Assembly (NCBI GenBank): GCA_902805845.1
Contig: CADCUI010000040.1
Span: 1-35,946, forward strand
Direction of reading: 5' to 3'
DNA: 35,946 nucleotides
Origin: an uncultured Nocardioidaceae bacterium
GTDB taxonomy: Bacteria > Actinomycetota > Actinomycetes > Propionibacteriales > Nocardioidaceae
Part shown: positions 2,244 through 24,224 of the stretch, piece after piece
Position numbering within the stretch: position 1 is the first letter of the stretch
Layout: each line of letters starts with the position of its first letter
Program-made: the position numbers and the translations under genes
Notes under the pieces: model-generated
What the model was told of the DNA's origin: nothing
Seen by the model: the letters and a program-made list of their open reading frames with translations, nothing else
The model's database searches: none

Positions 2244-4121
2244 GTGCACATCGTCCCCTGGCTCGTCCTCCTGGTCGTCACGGTCGTCGCGGTCGCCGCC
2301 GCGAGCCGTCGGCTCGACCTGTCCACGCCGGTGGTGATGGTGTCGGTCGGCGTGGTCGCGTCGTACCTGCCGTTCGTCCCCGAGGTCCAGCTGACCCCCG
2401 ACCTCGTCCTGGTGGGGTTGCTGCCCCCGCTTCTCTACAACGCCGCGCTGCAGACCAGCCTCATCGACTTCAACGCGCACCGCAGGTCGATCCTGTCGCT
2501 CTCCATCGGCCTGGTCGCCTTCACGACCGTCGGCGTGGCGGTGGTGGTGCACTCCGTCGTGCCCGGCATGGACTGGCCGGCCGCCTTCGCCCTCGGCGCC
2601 GTGGTCGCGCCTCCGGACGCCGTGGCGGCGACCGCCGTGGCCCGCCGGATCGGGCTGCCGCGGGGCATGGTGACGGTCCTGGAGGGCGAGTCACTGCTCA
2701 ACGACGCGACGGCGCTGGTCGCCCTCAAGACCGCGATCCTCGCCGCCTCCGGGGCTGCCACGCTGACGGGCGTCGGCGTCGACTTCCTGCAGTCCGCCCT
2801 GGGCGGGGTCGCCTGCGGGGTGGCGCTCTACCTCGTGGTCGGCTGGGTACGCCGACACGTCACCGACCCGGTGATGGACACCTGCGTCTCGCTGGTCACC
2901 CCGTTCATCGCCTACGTGGCAGCCGAGGAGCTGCACGCCAGCGGGGTCCTGGCCGTGGTCATCGCCGGGCTGCTCCTGGGGCACCAGGCGCCGGTGCTGC
3001 AGACGGCGTCCTCCCGGATCGCAGAACGGCTCAACTGGCGGACGATCTCCTTCCTGCTGGAGAACGCGGTGTTCCTGCTGATCGGCATGCAGACGCGCCG
3101 GATCCTCGATGCCGTGTTCGCGAGCGGACTGGCCGCGGGGACCGTCGTGGGGACCTGCCTGGCCGTGCTGGGCACGGTGATCGTGCTGCGGATGGCCTGG
3201 GTCTTCCCCTCCCGCTACCTGCTGGCAAGGAGCGACTTCCCAGGAGGTCGTCCTCCCCGGACCTACACCGCGGTCGTGGGCTGGGCCGGCATGCGCGGGG
3301 TGGTCACGCTCGCCGCTGCGTTCGCGATCCCGGCCGACGCCCCACAGCGCGAGCTGCTGGTCCTGGCGGCGCTGGCGGTCACCGGCGGCACCCTGGTGCT
3401 GCAGGGGCTGTCGCTGCCCTGGCTTGTCCGCCGGCTGCGCGTCCCGGGCCCCGACCCGCGCGAGGACGCGCTGGCACGGGCCGAGCTGCTGCAGCAGGCC
3501 ACCCGGGCGGGGCTGGCCCGGCTCCACGAGATCGAGGCCGATGAGGGCGAGCAGGAGACCGCCGTCCGTGAGCTCCTGCGCTCACGGCTCGAGCAGCGCG
3601 ACTTCGCCGCCTGGGAACGGCTGGGGCGGGGCGAGCCCACGGGGGAGACCCCGAGCGAGCGTTACGCTCGGTTGCGCCTGGAGATGCTGCAGGCAGAGCG
3701 TCGCCGGGTGCTGGAGCTGCGAGGGCTCGGGCGGCTGCCGCACGAGGTGGTCTCGGACGTGCTCTCGACCCTGGACGTCGAGGAGTCCATGGTCGGCCGG
3801 CTCATGGCGCAGCGGGAGCAGCTGACCTCACAGCACGAAGGAGGACCGGTGGCACAGAGAGTCGTCGACGGCTGCACACACCTCGCCGAGGCCGGCGCGG
3901 CCCAGGAGCCGGCCGACCGCAGGTGCGAGGACTGCCTGCGAGAAGGTACGACGTGGGTCCATCTGCGGTCCTGCCTGGCATGCGGCCACGTCGGCTGCTG
4001 CGACTCCTCACCTCGTCGGCACGCCTCCGGCCACTTCAGGGGCACCGGACACCCGGTCGTCGCCTCGGCGGAGCCGCGTGAGCACTGGCGATGGTGCTTC
4101 GTCGACGAGGTCCTCGGCTGA
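2244..4121 (+). CDS. CPA1 Na+/H+ antiporter with C-terminal UBP-type zinc finger
   Basis: This looks like an inner-membrane sodium/proton exchanger of the CPA1 (NhaP/YjcE-like) family, 625 residues from the chosen GTG start. That start is preceded by AAGGAG at 2233-2238 with 5-base spacing and leads straight into a hydrophobic segment; an upstream in-frame start would overlap menD. About 12 membrane segments fill residues 1-390. They include APPDAVAATAVARR and GESLLNDATAL (Asn153-Asp154), the conserved ion-binding region. Residues 400-540 are charged and helical, probably cytoplasmic. From Cys544 to the end there is a UBP-type zinc finger with CTHL, CEDC, CLACGHVGCC and H..GHF..TGHPV. The gene follows menD by 10 bases. 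The zinc finger's role is unknown to me. Substrate choice (Na+, K+ or both) cannot be read from sequence. Confidence 0.9.
   Translation: MHIVPWLVLLVVTVVAVAAASRRLDLSTPVVMVSVGVVASYLPFVPEVQLTPDLVLVGLLPPLLYNAALQTSLIDFNAHRRSILSLSIGLVAFTTVGVAVVVHSVVPGMDWPAAFALGAVVAPPDAVAATAVARRIGLPRGMVTVLEGESLLNDATALVALKTAILAASGAATLTGVGVDFLQSALGGVACGVALYLVVGWVRRHVTDPVMDTCVSLVTPFIAYVAAEELHASGVLAVVIAGLLLGHQAPVLQTASSRIAERLNWRTISFLLENAVFLLIGMQTRRILDAVFASGLAAGTVVGTCLAVLGTVIVLRMAWVFPSRYLLARSDFPGGRPPRTYTAVVGWAGMRGVVTLAAAFAIPADAPQRELLVLAALAVTGGTLVLQGLSLPWLVRRLRVPGPDPREDALARAELLQQATRAGLARLHEIEADEGEQETAVRELLRSRLEQRDFAAWERLGRGEPTGETPSERYARLRLEMLQAERRRVLELRGLGRLPHEVVSDVLSTLDVEESMVGRLMAQREQLTSQHEGGPVAQRVVDGCTHLAEAGAAQEPADRRCEDCLREGTTWVHLRSCLACGHVGCCDSSPRRHASGHFRGTGHPVVASAEPREHWRWCFVDEVLG
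3838..4121 (+). other. candidate internal start for stand-alone UBP zinc-finger protein
   Basis: Inside the antiporter gene, just before the zinc-finger domain, a full AAGGAGG sits at 3838-3844. It is followed after 4 bases by an in-frame GTG at 3849. Starting there would yield a 90-residue protein (VAQRVVDGCTHLAEAG...) containing exactly the UBP-type zinc finger and nothing of the transporter. The bases also encode a Gly-rich linker (HEGGPV), so the match may be fortuitous. The 4-base spacing is slightly short. Small free-standing UBP-type zinc-finger proteins exist in bacteria, which makes a dual product reasonable but unproven. Confidence 0.35.
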
Positions 4122-4160
4122 CGCGCCACCCGGCGTGCCGGGCCTGACAGGATGGCGGGC

Positions 4161-4799
4161 ATGCGCGTCACCAAGTTCGGCCACTCCTGCGTCCGGCTGT
4201 CCGGCGGCGGCCGGGACGTCGTCCTCGACCCCGGCGGCTGGTCGGAGCGGGAGGCCGTGGACGGGGTGGCCGCGGTCCTCGTCACCCACGAGCACGCGGA
4301 CCACTGGGACGTCGAGCACCTGCGGGCCACCGACGCACCCATCTACACGATCGCGGCGGTCAGGGACCAGATCCGGGAGGCCGACCCCGGGGTTGCCGAG
4401 CGCGTCACGGTCGTGGCACCCGGAGACCAGATGGACATCGCGGGGTTCGACGTCCGGGTCGTCGGTGAGCGGCACGCGGTCATCCACCCCGAGCTGCCGA
4501 CGTACTTCAACTCCGGCTACGTGCTGACCGGCGAGGGCACGTCGGTCTACCACCCCGGGGACTCCTTCGAGAGGCCCGGCCAGCAGGTCGACGTCTTCTG
4601 CGCGCCGGCGAGCGCCCCCTGGGCCAAGATGTCGGAGCTCCTCGACCTCGCCCGCGACGTCGCGGCGCCCCGGACGCTGGCGATCCACGACAAGATCTAC
4701 ACCGACCTGGGGTTCGGGATCGTCGACGGCATGATGCAGCGGTTCCTCGAGCCCGTCGACAGCAGCTACGTCCGTCTCACCCCCGGCCAGGACCTCTGA
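4161..4799 (+). CDS. metallo-beta-lactamase-fold hydrolase (UlaG-like)
   Basis: This predicted cytoplasmic metal-dependent hydrolase has 212 residues. It begins MRVTKFGHSCVRL, a typical opening of the UlaG/L-ascorbate-6-P lactonase-like branch of the metallo-beta-lactamase superfamily. The metal-binding motif THEHADHWD gives His43, His45, Asp47 and His48. Further ligands are probably in ERHAVIH, YHPGDSF (Asp) and LAIHDKIYTD. An ATG 9 bases upstream (4152) is possible. I prefer 4161 because the family opening starts there and CAGGAT (4148-4153) lies 7 bases before it, resembling a leaderless -10 box. The substrate is unknown. The gene converges on menF across the repeat block. Confidence 0.82.
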   Translation: MRVTKFGHSCVRLSGGGRDVVLDPGGWSEREAVDGVAAVLVTHEHADHWDVEHLRATDAPIYTIAAVRDQIREADPGVAERVTVVAPGDQMDIAGFDVRVVGERHAVIHPELPTYFNSGYVLTGEGTSVYHPGDSFERPGQQVDVFCAPASAPWAKMSELLDLARDVAAPRTLAIHDKIYTDLGFGIVDGMMQRFLEPVDSSYVRLTPGQDL

Positions 4800-21043: not shown

Positions 21044-22635
21044 GCTTCCCCTGGCTGACCCTGGCCCTGGTGCTCCCACTCACGGGTGCGCTCGTCCTCA
21101 TGCTGCTGCCGAAGAGCAGCTCCGCCCGGCCCGGCGAGAGCGCGAGCGCGCTGCCGCAGCAGGTCGCGCTGGCCTTCTCCTTGCTCACGCTGGCGTTGAC
21201 CGTCGGCCTCGCCCTGCGCTTCGACCCGAATGCCGAGGGGTTCCAGTTCGAGGAGGTGCACACCTGGATCGAGGGGTTCGGCGCGCACTACGCCCTCGGG
21301 CTGGACGGCATCGGACTCACGCTGGTGCTGCTGACCGCGGTGCTGACCCCGATCGTGGTGCTGGCCTCCTGGGGCGACGCCGACCGCGGACGCTGGTCGG
21401 TCAACTCGTTCTTCGCGTGGCTCCTCGCCCTTGAGGGGCTGGCGATCGGCGTGTTCGCCGCCACGGACGTCTTCTTGTTCTACGTGCTCTTCGAGGCGAC
21501 GCTGCTGCCGATCTACTTCCTCATCGGCGGCTTCGGTGGCGCCCGCCGCTCCTACGCCGCGACGAAGTTCCTCGTGTACTCCCTCCTCGGAGGGCTGGTC
21601 ATGCTCGCCTCGGTGATCGGCCTGTACGTCGAGTCGGCCAGGTCCAGCGGCGGACCGACGTACCTGCTCTCCGAGCTGGTCCCGATCATGGGCGACGTCG
21701 ACACCGGGGTGGGCCGCTGGCTCTTCCTCGGGTTCTTCGTCGCGTTCGCGATCAAGGCGCCGATGTTCCCGGTGCACACCTGGCTCCCTGACGCCGCCGA
21801 CGAGGCGACCCCCGGCACCTCGGTGATGCTGGTCAGCGTGCTCGACAAGATCGGCACCTTCGGGATGATCCGGTTCTGCCTCGGCCTGTTCCCCGAGGCG
21901 TCGACCTGGGCCACCCCGGTCGTGCTCGTCCTGGCGGTCGTCAGCATCCTGTACGGCGCCCTGGTCGCGATCGGCCAGCGCAGCATCCCGAGGCTCATCG
22001 CCTACACGTCGGTGTCGCACTTCGGGTTCATCGTCCTGGGCATCTTCGTCATGAACAGCCAGGGCCAGGTCGGCTCGACGCTCTACATGTTCAACCACGG
22101 GCTGTCGACGGGACTGCTGTTCCTGGTGACCGGCTTCCTCATCGCCAGACGCGGCTCCCGGATGATCCCCGACTTCGGCGGCGTGCAGTCGGTGGCCCCG
22201 CTGCTGGCCGGGATCTTCCTGGTGGCCGGCCTCTCCTCCCTGTCGTTGCCGGGGCTCTCGCCGTTCGTCTCGGAGTTCCTGGTGATGACCGGCGCGTTCG
22301 TGCGGGACTGGTGGTACGCCGCCTTCGCGGTGCTCGGGATGGTGCTCGCGGCGCTCTACATCCTGCTGATGTACCAGCGCACCATGACCGGGCCGGTGCG
22401 TCCGGCCATCGAGGGCATGCGCGACCTCGGCCGCCGCGAGCTGGCGGCCATGGCACCGCTGGTGACGCTCATCGTCGCGCTGGGGTTCTTCCCCCAGCCG
22501 CTGACCGACGTCATCCGCCCGGCCGTGGCCGACACCCTCAGCCATGTCGGCCGGGCGGACCCCGGACCGACCGTCACCGGGGCCGACACCGAAGCTGAGA
22601 CCGGGGCCGACGCCGAGACCGAGGGGGCCGACTGA
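21040..22635 (+). CDS. nuoM: NADH-quinone oxidoreductase subunit M
   Basis: NuoM is the middle antiporter-like proton-pumping subunit, 531 residues with about 14 helices. Motifs include [19 protein letters not shown] with the conserved Glu, [20 protein letters not shown] with the conserved Lys, and [14 protein letters not shown]. The last 25 or so residues form an acidic tail with imperfect [15 protein letters not shown] repeats. The ATG overlaps the nuoL stop, and the last stop base is the first base of the nuoN ATG. Confidence 0.97.
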
Positions 22636-24224
22636 TGACCGTCGAGGCACCGCACATCGAGTACGGCACGCTGTCGCCGCTCCTGCTGATCCTCGGCGTC
22701 GCCATCGTCGGGGTGATGGTCGAGGCGTTCCTCCCACGGCGGCTGCGCTACCTCGTGCAGACGCTGCTGGCCATCGCCGGCACGCTCGGCGCCTTCGCGG
22801 CCACGATCTACGTCGGCACCCGGCTCGCCGACCGCGCCGACGGGCGGGCTCGTGGCTCGATCGTGGCCGAGGGTGCGATCGCGGTCGACGGCCCGACGAT
22901 CTTCCTCTGGGGGGTGCTGCTGCTGCTCTCCTTCGTCAGCGTGCTGCTCTTCGCCGAGCGTCACCTCGACGGCGGCGTCACCGCGTTCGCCGGACAGGCC
23001 GCGGCGCTGCCGGGGACCGAGGCCGAGCGTGAGGCGTCGACGAGGGGGCTCGAGCACACCGAGGTCTTCCCGCTGATGATGTTCGCGGTGGCCGGCATGA
23101 TGCTGTTCCCCGCGTCGAACGACCTGCTGACCATGTTCGTGGCGCTCGAGGTGCTCTCGCTGCCGCTCTACCTGCTGTGCGGGCTCGCACGCCGACGCCG
23201 GCTGCTCAGCCAGGAGGCGGCGCTCAAGTACTTCATGCTCGGTGCCTTCAGCTCCGGCTTCTTCCTCTACGGCATCGCGCTCGTCTACGGGTACGCCGGC
23301 GGCACCAGCTTCGCCGCCGTCGCCGAGGCGGTGGCCGGGCGCATCGGCTCCCAGGGCCTGCTCCTCGGTGGGGTGGCGCTGATGTCGGTGGGGCTGCTCT
23401 TCAAGGTCAGCGCGGCTCCGTTCCACGCCTGGACCCCCGACGTCTACCAGGGCGCCCCCACGGCGGTCACCGGCTTCATGGCCGTGTGCACCAAGGTCGC
23501 CGCGTTCGGCGCCCTGCTCCGGCTGTTCTACGTCGCCTTCGGCGGCGCCCAGCGGGACTGGACGCCGATGATCTGGATCGTGGCCATCGTGACGATGGCG
23601 GTCGGCTCGATCTTCGCCCTGACCCAGAGCGACATCAAGCGCATGCTGGCCTACTCCTCGATCGCGCACGCCGGGTTCCTGCTCGTGGGCTTCGTGGGGC
23701 TCTACCAGGCCACCGGTGCGGCCGGCAGCGAGATCACCTCGCTCCAGTCGGTGCTCTTCTACCTCGTCACCTACGGGTTCATGACGATCGGTGCCTTCGG
23801 CATCGTGACGCTGGTGCGGGATGCGGGCGGCGAGGCGAACCACCTCTCGCGGTGGGCCGGTCTGGGCAAGGAGTCGCCGCTGGTGGCGGGTGTCTTCGCC
23901 TTCTTCCTGCTCTCGATGGCGGGCATCCCGCTCACCAGCGGGTTCACCGGCAAGTGGGCGGTGTTCACCTCGGCAGCCCAGGGCGGCGCGTGGCCGCTGG
24001 TCGTGGTCGGGGTCATCCTCAGCGTCGTCGCGGCGTACTTCTACCTGCGCGTCATCGTGCTGATGTACTTCGCCGAGCCGGCGGGCGAGGGTCCCACGGT
24101 CGCGGTCCCGAGCGTGCTGACCGTGGCGGTGATCGCGGTCGGTCTGGCGGCGACCGTGGTGCTCGGTGTTCTTCCCGGCCCGGTGCTCGACCTCGCCGCG
24201 CAGGCCGGTGCCTTCGTCCGGTGA
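22635..24224 (+). CDS. nuoN: NADH-quinone oxidoreductase subunit N
   Basis: NuoN is the proximal antiporter-like subunit of the membrane arm, 529 residues with about 14 helices. Conserved segments are FVALEVLSLPLYLLCGLARR with the functional Glu, LKYFMLGAFSSGFFLYG, KVSAAPFHAWTPDVYQGAPT with the key Lys, and QSDIKRMLAYSSIAHAGFLL. A hydrophilic loop at about 110-138 (TAFAGQAAALPGTEAERE) separates two helices. The ATG shares a base with the nuoM stop (TGATG). The TGA stop overlaps the GTG of the polyprenyl synthase, which therefore belongs to the same transcript. Confidence 0.97.
   Translation: MTVEAPHIEYGTLSPLLLILGVAIVGVMVEAFLPRRLRYLVQTLLAIAGTLGAFAATIYVGTRLADRADGRARGSIVAEGAIAVDGPTIFLWGVLLLLSFVSVLLFAERHLDGGVTAFAGQAAALPGTEAEREASTRGLEHTEVFPLMMFAVAGMMLFPASNDLLTMFVALEVLSLPLYLLCGLARRRRLLSQEAALKYFMLGAFSSGFFLYGIALVYGYAGGTSFAAVAEAVAGRIGSQGLLLGGVALMSVGLLFKVSAAPFHAWTPDVYQGAPTAVTGFMAVCTKVAAFGALLRLFYVAFGGAQRDWTPMIWIVAIVTMAVGSIFALTQSDIKRMLAYSSIAHAGFLLVGFVGLYQATGAAGSEITSLQSVLFYLVTYGFMTIGAFGIVTLVRDAGGEANHLSRWAGLGKESPLVAGVFAFFLLSMAGIPLTSGFTGKWAVFTSAAQGGAWPLVVVGVILSVVAAYFYLRVIVLMYFAEPAGEGPTVAVPSVLTVAVIAVGLAATVVLGVLPGPVLDLAAQAGAFVR

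Follow-up and report, generated by a model that had tools for sequence, protein, structure and literature searches.

Does one gene in this uncultured Nocardioidaceae bacterium make two proteins, a membrane antiporter that ends in a zinc finger and the zinc finger by itself? The window analysed, a stretch of 35,946 nucleotides, carries on its forward strand (as with the other features of this locus given below) a gene of 625 codons (2244–4121, GTG start at 2244) encoding a CPA1-type Na+/H+ antiporter with a C-terminal zf-UBP domain. Its own Shine-Dalgarno (SD) sequence, AAGGAG (2233–2238), overlaps the stop codon (2231–2233) of an upstream menD-like gene, and its product scores 307.7 bits against TIGR00831 (curated cut-off 279.6), which places it among the CPA1 Na+/H+ antiporters. 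The product consists, in order, of the Na_H_Exchanger transmembrane domain (PF00999, 2280–3431), a cytoplasmic helical tail closing with the motif LDVEESM, a hypervariable linker of 27 codons (3792–3872) that runs from this motif to the first zinc-finger Cys, and the zf-UBP domain (PF02148 match at 3924–4106), the sole PF02148 match in its genome assembly. The first-pass annotation had noted at the boundary between helical tail and zinc finger an AAGGAGG motif, a 4-base gap and an in-frame GTG that would open a 90-residue product, and every one of these particulars was exact on recheck: AAGGAGG (3838–3844) is followed by ACCG and then by GTG (3849–3851), in frame with the ORF that ends at 4121, leaving 90 codons (3849–4121), and the site lies within the linker, with LDVEESM upstream and the first zinc-finger Cys codon (3873) downstream.

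The window's own assembly has no 16S rRNA gene; the 16S 3' end of a genome of the same genus, G003 (GGATCACCTCCTTTCT, reverse strand of L127), carries a standard anti-SD. Against this tail the internal site combines a complementary SD, a workable spacing and an in-frame start codon, with a duplex energy of -12.5 kcal/mol compared to -8.7 for the antiporter's own start. It outpairs roughly 96% of the 329 called gene starts, although the precise location of these starts is an estimate, the 335 genes in the 387 kb searched having been called by a simple codon-usage script and not by a gene finder; a 4-base gap between SD and start is found at 8 of the 37 called starts having matches of at least 6 bases. 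Three codons at the SD are rare ones (GAA 5%, GGA 8% and GGA 8% of synonyms). The further claim that a match of this quality would be unlikely at a domain edge is too strong, since genes contain others like it: among the 4967 in-frame internal starts scored in the same 387 kb, 7 are as strong (the count includes the site itself), 31 have matches of at least 7 bases, and by extrapolation some dozens of equally strong sites are expected per genome. The window contains 6 copies of AAGGAGG where 2.54 are expected, and 6 of 100 shuffles reach as many. Taken alone, then, the strength of the match is only moderately above chance.

Fusion of this antiporter to zf-UBP is widespread. A tail-plus-finger query found matches in 238 of 294 family genomes (E <= 1e-12; stand-alone fingers are counted in), and the best places listed were long frames covering both tail and finger in all but one case, that one lying at a contig end. 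The species collection contained at least 564 stretches encoding relatives, and the fusion is present in many Actinomycetota (Kribbella, Nocardia, Arthrobacter, Terrabacter and others; L128–L207), among which the window gene is unexceptional, its domains standing in the same order. Literature searches on zf-UBP with antiporter and on bacterial UBP-type zinc fingers returned no paper on the fusion. Split-gene ancestry was considered and rejected: no recent fusion was seen in a sample of 35 zf-UBP places taken with 1.5 kb on each side (L001–L035), as all six loci with an antiporter adjoining the finger (L001–L005, L020) are long fused frames.

From 170 fused loci (30, then 60 further places in rank order with some skipped, then 80) we scored 156 distinct genes, leaving out three that could not be parsed (L188, L203, L204) and 11 that repeat an earlier linker. 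A codon alignment of 30 fused genes revealed no SD and GTG shared outside the genus, the linker varying in both length and sequence, and this together with the linker scoring of all 156 genes rejects family-wide conservation of the site: a comparable SD and start occur together in 4 of 5 genus members and in only 4 of 151 other homologues. Even a near-identical pair differs, with SD and GTG in L052 and GTC in L061. At the level of the family, the alignment of homologues that had been proposed as a check does not support the original reading. What stands of that reading is that the site is real and not demanded by the protein; it is not a general property of the gene, and the match by itself does not decide the matter. 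In the group of near relatives L052, L054, L061 and L064 (linker HEQ[ED]EPVGLR) SD and start codon come and go, and these genes are likely an example of an unselected site.

Within the genus the result is different. The four best sites combining an SD with an in-frame start among the 156 fused homologues belong to the window and to three of its four genus mates (G001, G003 and G004), with duplex scores of -13.0, -12.7, -12.5 and -12.3, and in no other clade of the 156 genes is a strong internal ribosome-binding site shared. The GTG lies at the end of the linker, 6–8 codons ahead of the first Cys, except that the GTG with the best pairing in G001 is 4 codons away from it, and the better-placed GTGs of that genome pair at only -9.0 and -5.0. 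The spacing between SD and GTG is about equal among the four, whereas the SD falls in two codon phases and the residues encoded differ (HEGGPV, VTGEVV, SRGDAV, QERSDVV), which bears out the claim that the protein does not dictate the SD. In G002, the fifth member of the genus, an SD-like stretch is present and the start codon is missing. In a tree of 45 proteins built with the linker excluded, the genus forms one clade (99/94) in which G002 branches first, and the other four group together as a clade (96/94), their end branches measuring 0.28–0.41 changes per column; a single gain suffices to explain the site in these four. The neighbouring menD-, menF- and menG-like genes and nuo genes keep their order in the sister genomes (the names come from reading the sequences, with Pfam matches supporting part of them). 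Among the four, linker identity is 19–35% compared to 63–76% for the zinc finger. Inside the genus, in a clade of four genomes only, the site has thus been kept beyond what the protein sequence demands, which was not the case outside it, and its retention in four species despite this turnover of protein sequence is evidence for selection on the site.

The alternative that best survives is chance, namely that an unconstrained, purine-rich linker in a GC-rich genome where GTG is common produced such a site and that four species agree by luck or by inheritance. It is consistent with the 7 of 4967 internal starts mentioned above, and linkers favour such sites in general: 8 of the 156 linkers reach -10, against a mean of 2.2 for other stretches of the same genes and 5.8 for their own permuted codons (44 of 200 permutations reach 8), while at -8 the figures are 21 against 12.9 for permuted codons (2 of 200 permutations reach 21; 156 genes, genus included). 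In Mycobacterium tuberculosis, too, in-frame internal starts are numerous and many are expected to reflect pervasive translation (PMC9094748). This excess nonetheless places its four strongest sites in a single clade. In simulations of neutral drift to the observed divergence (mean linker identity 25%), a -12 site survived in 4.2% of lineages, and none of 300 runs retained it in all four; the -12 threshold was chosen after the data had been seen, and -10 gives the same picture. Synonymous resampling gave draws as strong as the observed site in 4.3% of cases for the window, 0.43% for G001, 0.17% for G003 and 0.37% for G004, and permutation of linker codons in 0.8%, 0.2%, 1.2% and 10%, respectively, the weak results being those for the window by resampling and for G004 by permutation.

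Sites of equal strength in the neighbouring genes lack such retention. Of 5745 stretches of equal size taken across the five genus genomes, 25 reach -12 (a background that includes the antiporter loci). For the neighbourhood control, 29 of 31 called window genes were entered and 27 were represented in at least three genomes, all five genomes being available for only 10. Counted per genome, these 27 genes contain, apart from the linker, 17 sites that score -10 or better; 15 of them recur in no other genome, 2 recur in one other and none in two or more, whereas of the five linker rows in the same control 4 are kept in three other genomes and 1 in two. We consider it unlikely that chance accounts for the site.

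We regard as probable that a clade-specific internal start supplies a free zf-UBP protein of 88–90 residues beside the fused antiporter, at a site kept by selection. Initiation at 2244 would give the complete antiporter, membrane part and zf-UBP tail together, and ribosome binding at AAGGAGG with initiation at GTG 3849 would yield just the tail, a soluble protein some 90 residues long. A common ancestor of four among the five genus members examined would have gained the site, which selection at the nucleotide level would then have preserved as the residues of the linker diverged. By itself the finger would probably do what a separate stand-alone zf-UBP protein does in many relatives, or compete with the fused finger for a partner.

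The predicted product holds a complete zf-UBP domain (PF02148, 45.8 bits over the 90 residues, cut-off 22.7), which establishes its membership of that family. Its length would be 90 residues in one clade member, 90, 89 or 86 in another depending on the start, 88 in G004 and 89 in the fourth. G004 has in addition a second strong SD in frame (AAGGGAG-CTCGAG-ATG, L038 1716–1731), eight codons upstream of the GTG, from which a 96-residue finger would start. AlphaFold2 gave a mean pLDDT of 84.4 for the 90 residues, the only segment below 50 being residues 1–5, and predicts that they fold alone. The best solved match to the model is 2IDA, the protein RPA1320 of Rhodopseudomonas palustris (52% identity over the model, E 1.5e-8), which has the same domain and is similar in size (102 residues against 90) but is a stand-alone bacterial protein with no antiporter part. 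The next structural matches are the ZnF-UBP domains of USP49 and HDAC6; the zf-UBP of USP5 and HDAC6 binds a free C-terminal Gly-Gly tail.

Stand-alone zf-UBP proteins are widespread in the family, and many of them occupy open frames of roughly 115–120 codons. Like the predicted product they are free zf-UBP domains from this family of bacteria, but they have a longer C-terminus and other conserved residues, and none was found in the five genus genomes, each of which has a single, fused zf-UBP copy. Among the loci of 89 genomes (L068 was left out of 90 as a repeat), only one zf-UBP match is present in 7 of 7 family genomes whose linker site reaches -10 or better compared to 44 of 82 of the rest (Fisher 0.019, kinship ignored); since 4 of the 7 belong to one clade, this association is a hint only. 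We tentatively suggest, as a possibility about which we are more doubtful than hopeful, a system of one gene and two products, in which the internal start would supply a soluble zf-UBP where the stand-alone copy is absent and the bound and free fingers would compete for the same bacterial partner. Bacterial zf-UBP domains occur both free and fused to antiporters, and the locus may offer a handle on their role.

The most serious functional rival to a free zinc finger is that the internal start serves the gene downstream, which encodes a hydrolase of the metallo-beta-lactamase fold (4161–4799, PF13483; alternative start ATG 4152) and could be a partner in translational coupling: ribosomes starting at 3849 would stop at 4121 and, by termination and reinitiation, raise translation of the hydrolase independently of the antiporter. 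The hydrolase gene lies directly downstream in all five genus genomes, with 39, 27, 6, 2 and -1 bases from stop to start, its own starts pair at -8.1, -4.3, -3.1, -8.8 and -7.2, and G002, which has the tightest overlap (TGATG), is the genus member without the internal start. However, the hydrolase is also close in other genera (13 to 24 bases; L058, L059, L048, L055), where the linkers reach only -6.4, 0, 0 and 0, and the window's hydrolase start carries a moderate SD of its own. An explanation from genus-specific presence of the hydrolase is weakened, as other genera have it too, and we judge coupling through the internal start to be improbable. The interval from antiporter stop to hydrolase start, -1 to 39 bases in the genus (window 4119–4163; L243, L248, L249, L250), in itself suggests that the two genes may be translationally coupled there.

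It is very improbable that the SD-like stretch acts by pausing ribosomes, so that the membrane part is inserted before the zinc finger is made, with the GTG incidental: such a stretch at -10 or better is present in the linkers of all five genus members (G002 included) compared to 29 of 151 other homologues, and effects of such stretches on elongation have been proposed and are disputed (PMC5100845), but a suitably placed in-frame start accompanies the strong linker SD in 4 of 5 cases in the genus and in only 4 of 29 elsewhere.

The internal start favoured here has parallels in M. tuberculosis, where Ribo-RET identified in-frame internal starts, described as 'isoform' ORFs (PMC9094748). It resembles these in having an internal start with an SD, a stop codon shared with the longer frame, a predicted product truncated at the N-terminus and an actinobacterial host. 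The M. tuberculosis examples are known from ribosome profiling, and for them codon usage cannot tell whether the starts are selected, as PMC9094748 states, whereas the site described here is known from sequence retention in four species. Internal starts in bacteria come mostly from profiling of a single species and are hard to separate from noise; retention across four species provides evidence for selection on an internal ribosome site.

Local mRNA structure gave a mixed result. Over the interval -22 to +22 around the start, the structure rank was 15 of 603 for the window, 6 of 603 for G001, 321 of 574 for G004 and 13 of 574 for G003; over -40 to +20, the interval applied to M. tuberculosis in PMC9094748, the ranks were 29 of 613, 498 of 613, 45 of 584 and 15 of 584, respectively. 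Structure is thus weak in three of the four by either interval, the exception changing from G004 to G001. At a fixed position seven codons ahead of the Cys the genus ranked 3rd, 9th, 17th, 44th and 52nd of 156, and these mixed ranks reject weak structure at that position as a genus-wide hallmark. A scan of 3500–4300 found no internal promoter of sigma-70 type, such a scan being of little value at the local G+C content.

Weaker shared sites were also seen. At -8, the neighbourhood control contains one non-linker site common to three genus genomes, an internal SD with start in the gene at 22635–24224, which is probably dictated by the amino acids encoded, and at -7 there are several common sites, one of them at the EESM motif. 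Just ahead of the linker, the codons for EESM (3780–3791, GAGGAGTCCATG) form an SD-like stretch 3 bases ahead of an in-frame ATG, with a comparable counterpart in all five genus members; it looks amino-acid-driven, and could also be a further internal start. Finally, in genome G138 (L015) a zf-UBP domain ends an open frame of 669 codons whose upstream part does not match this antiporter, and which possibly represents another fusion partner of zf-UBP.
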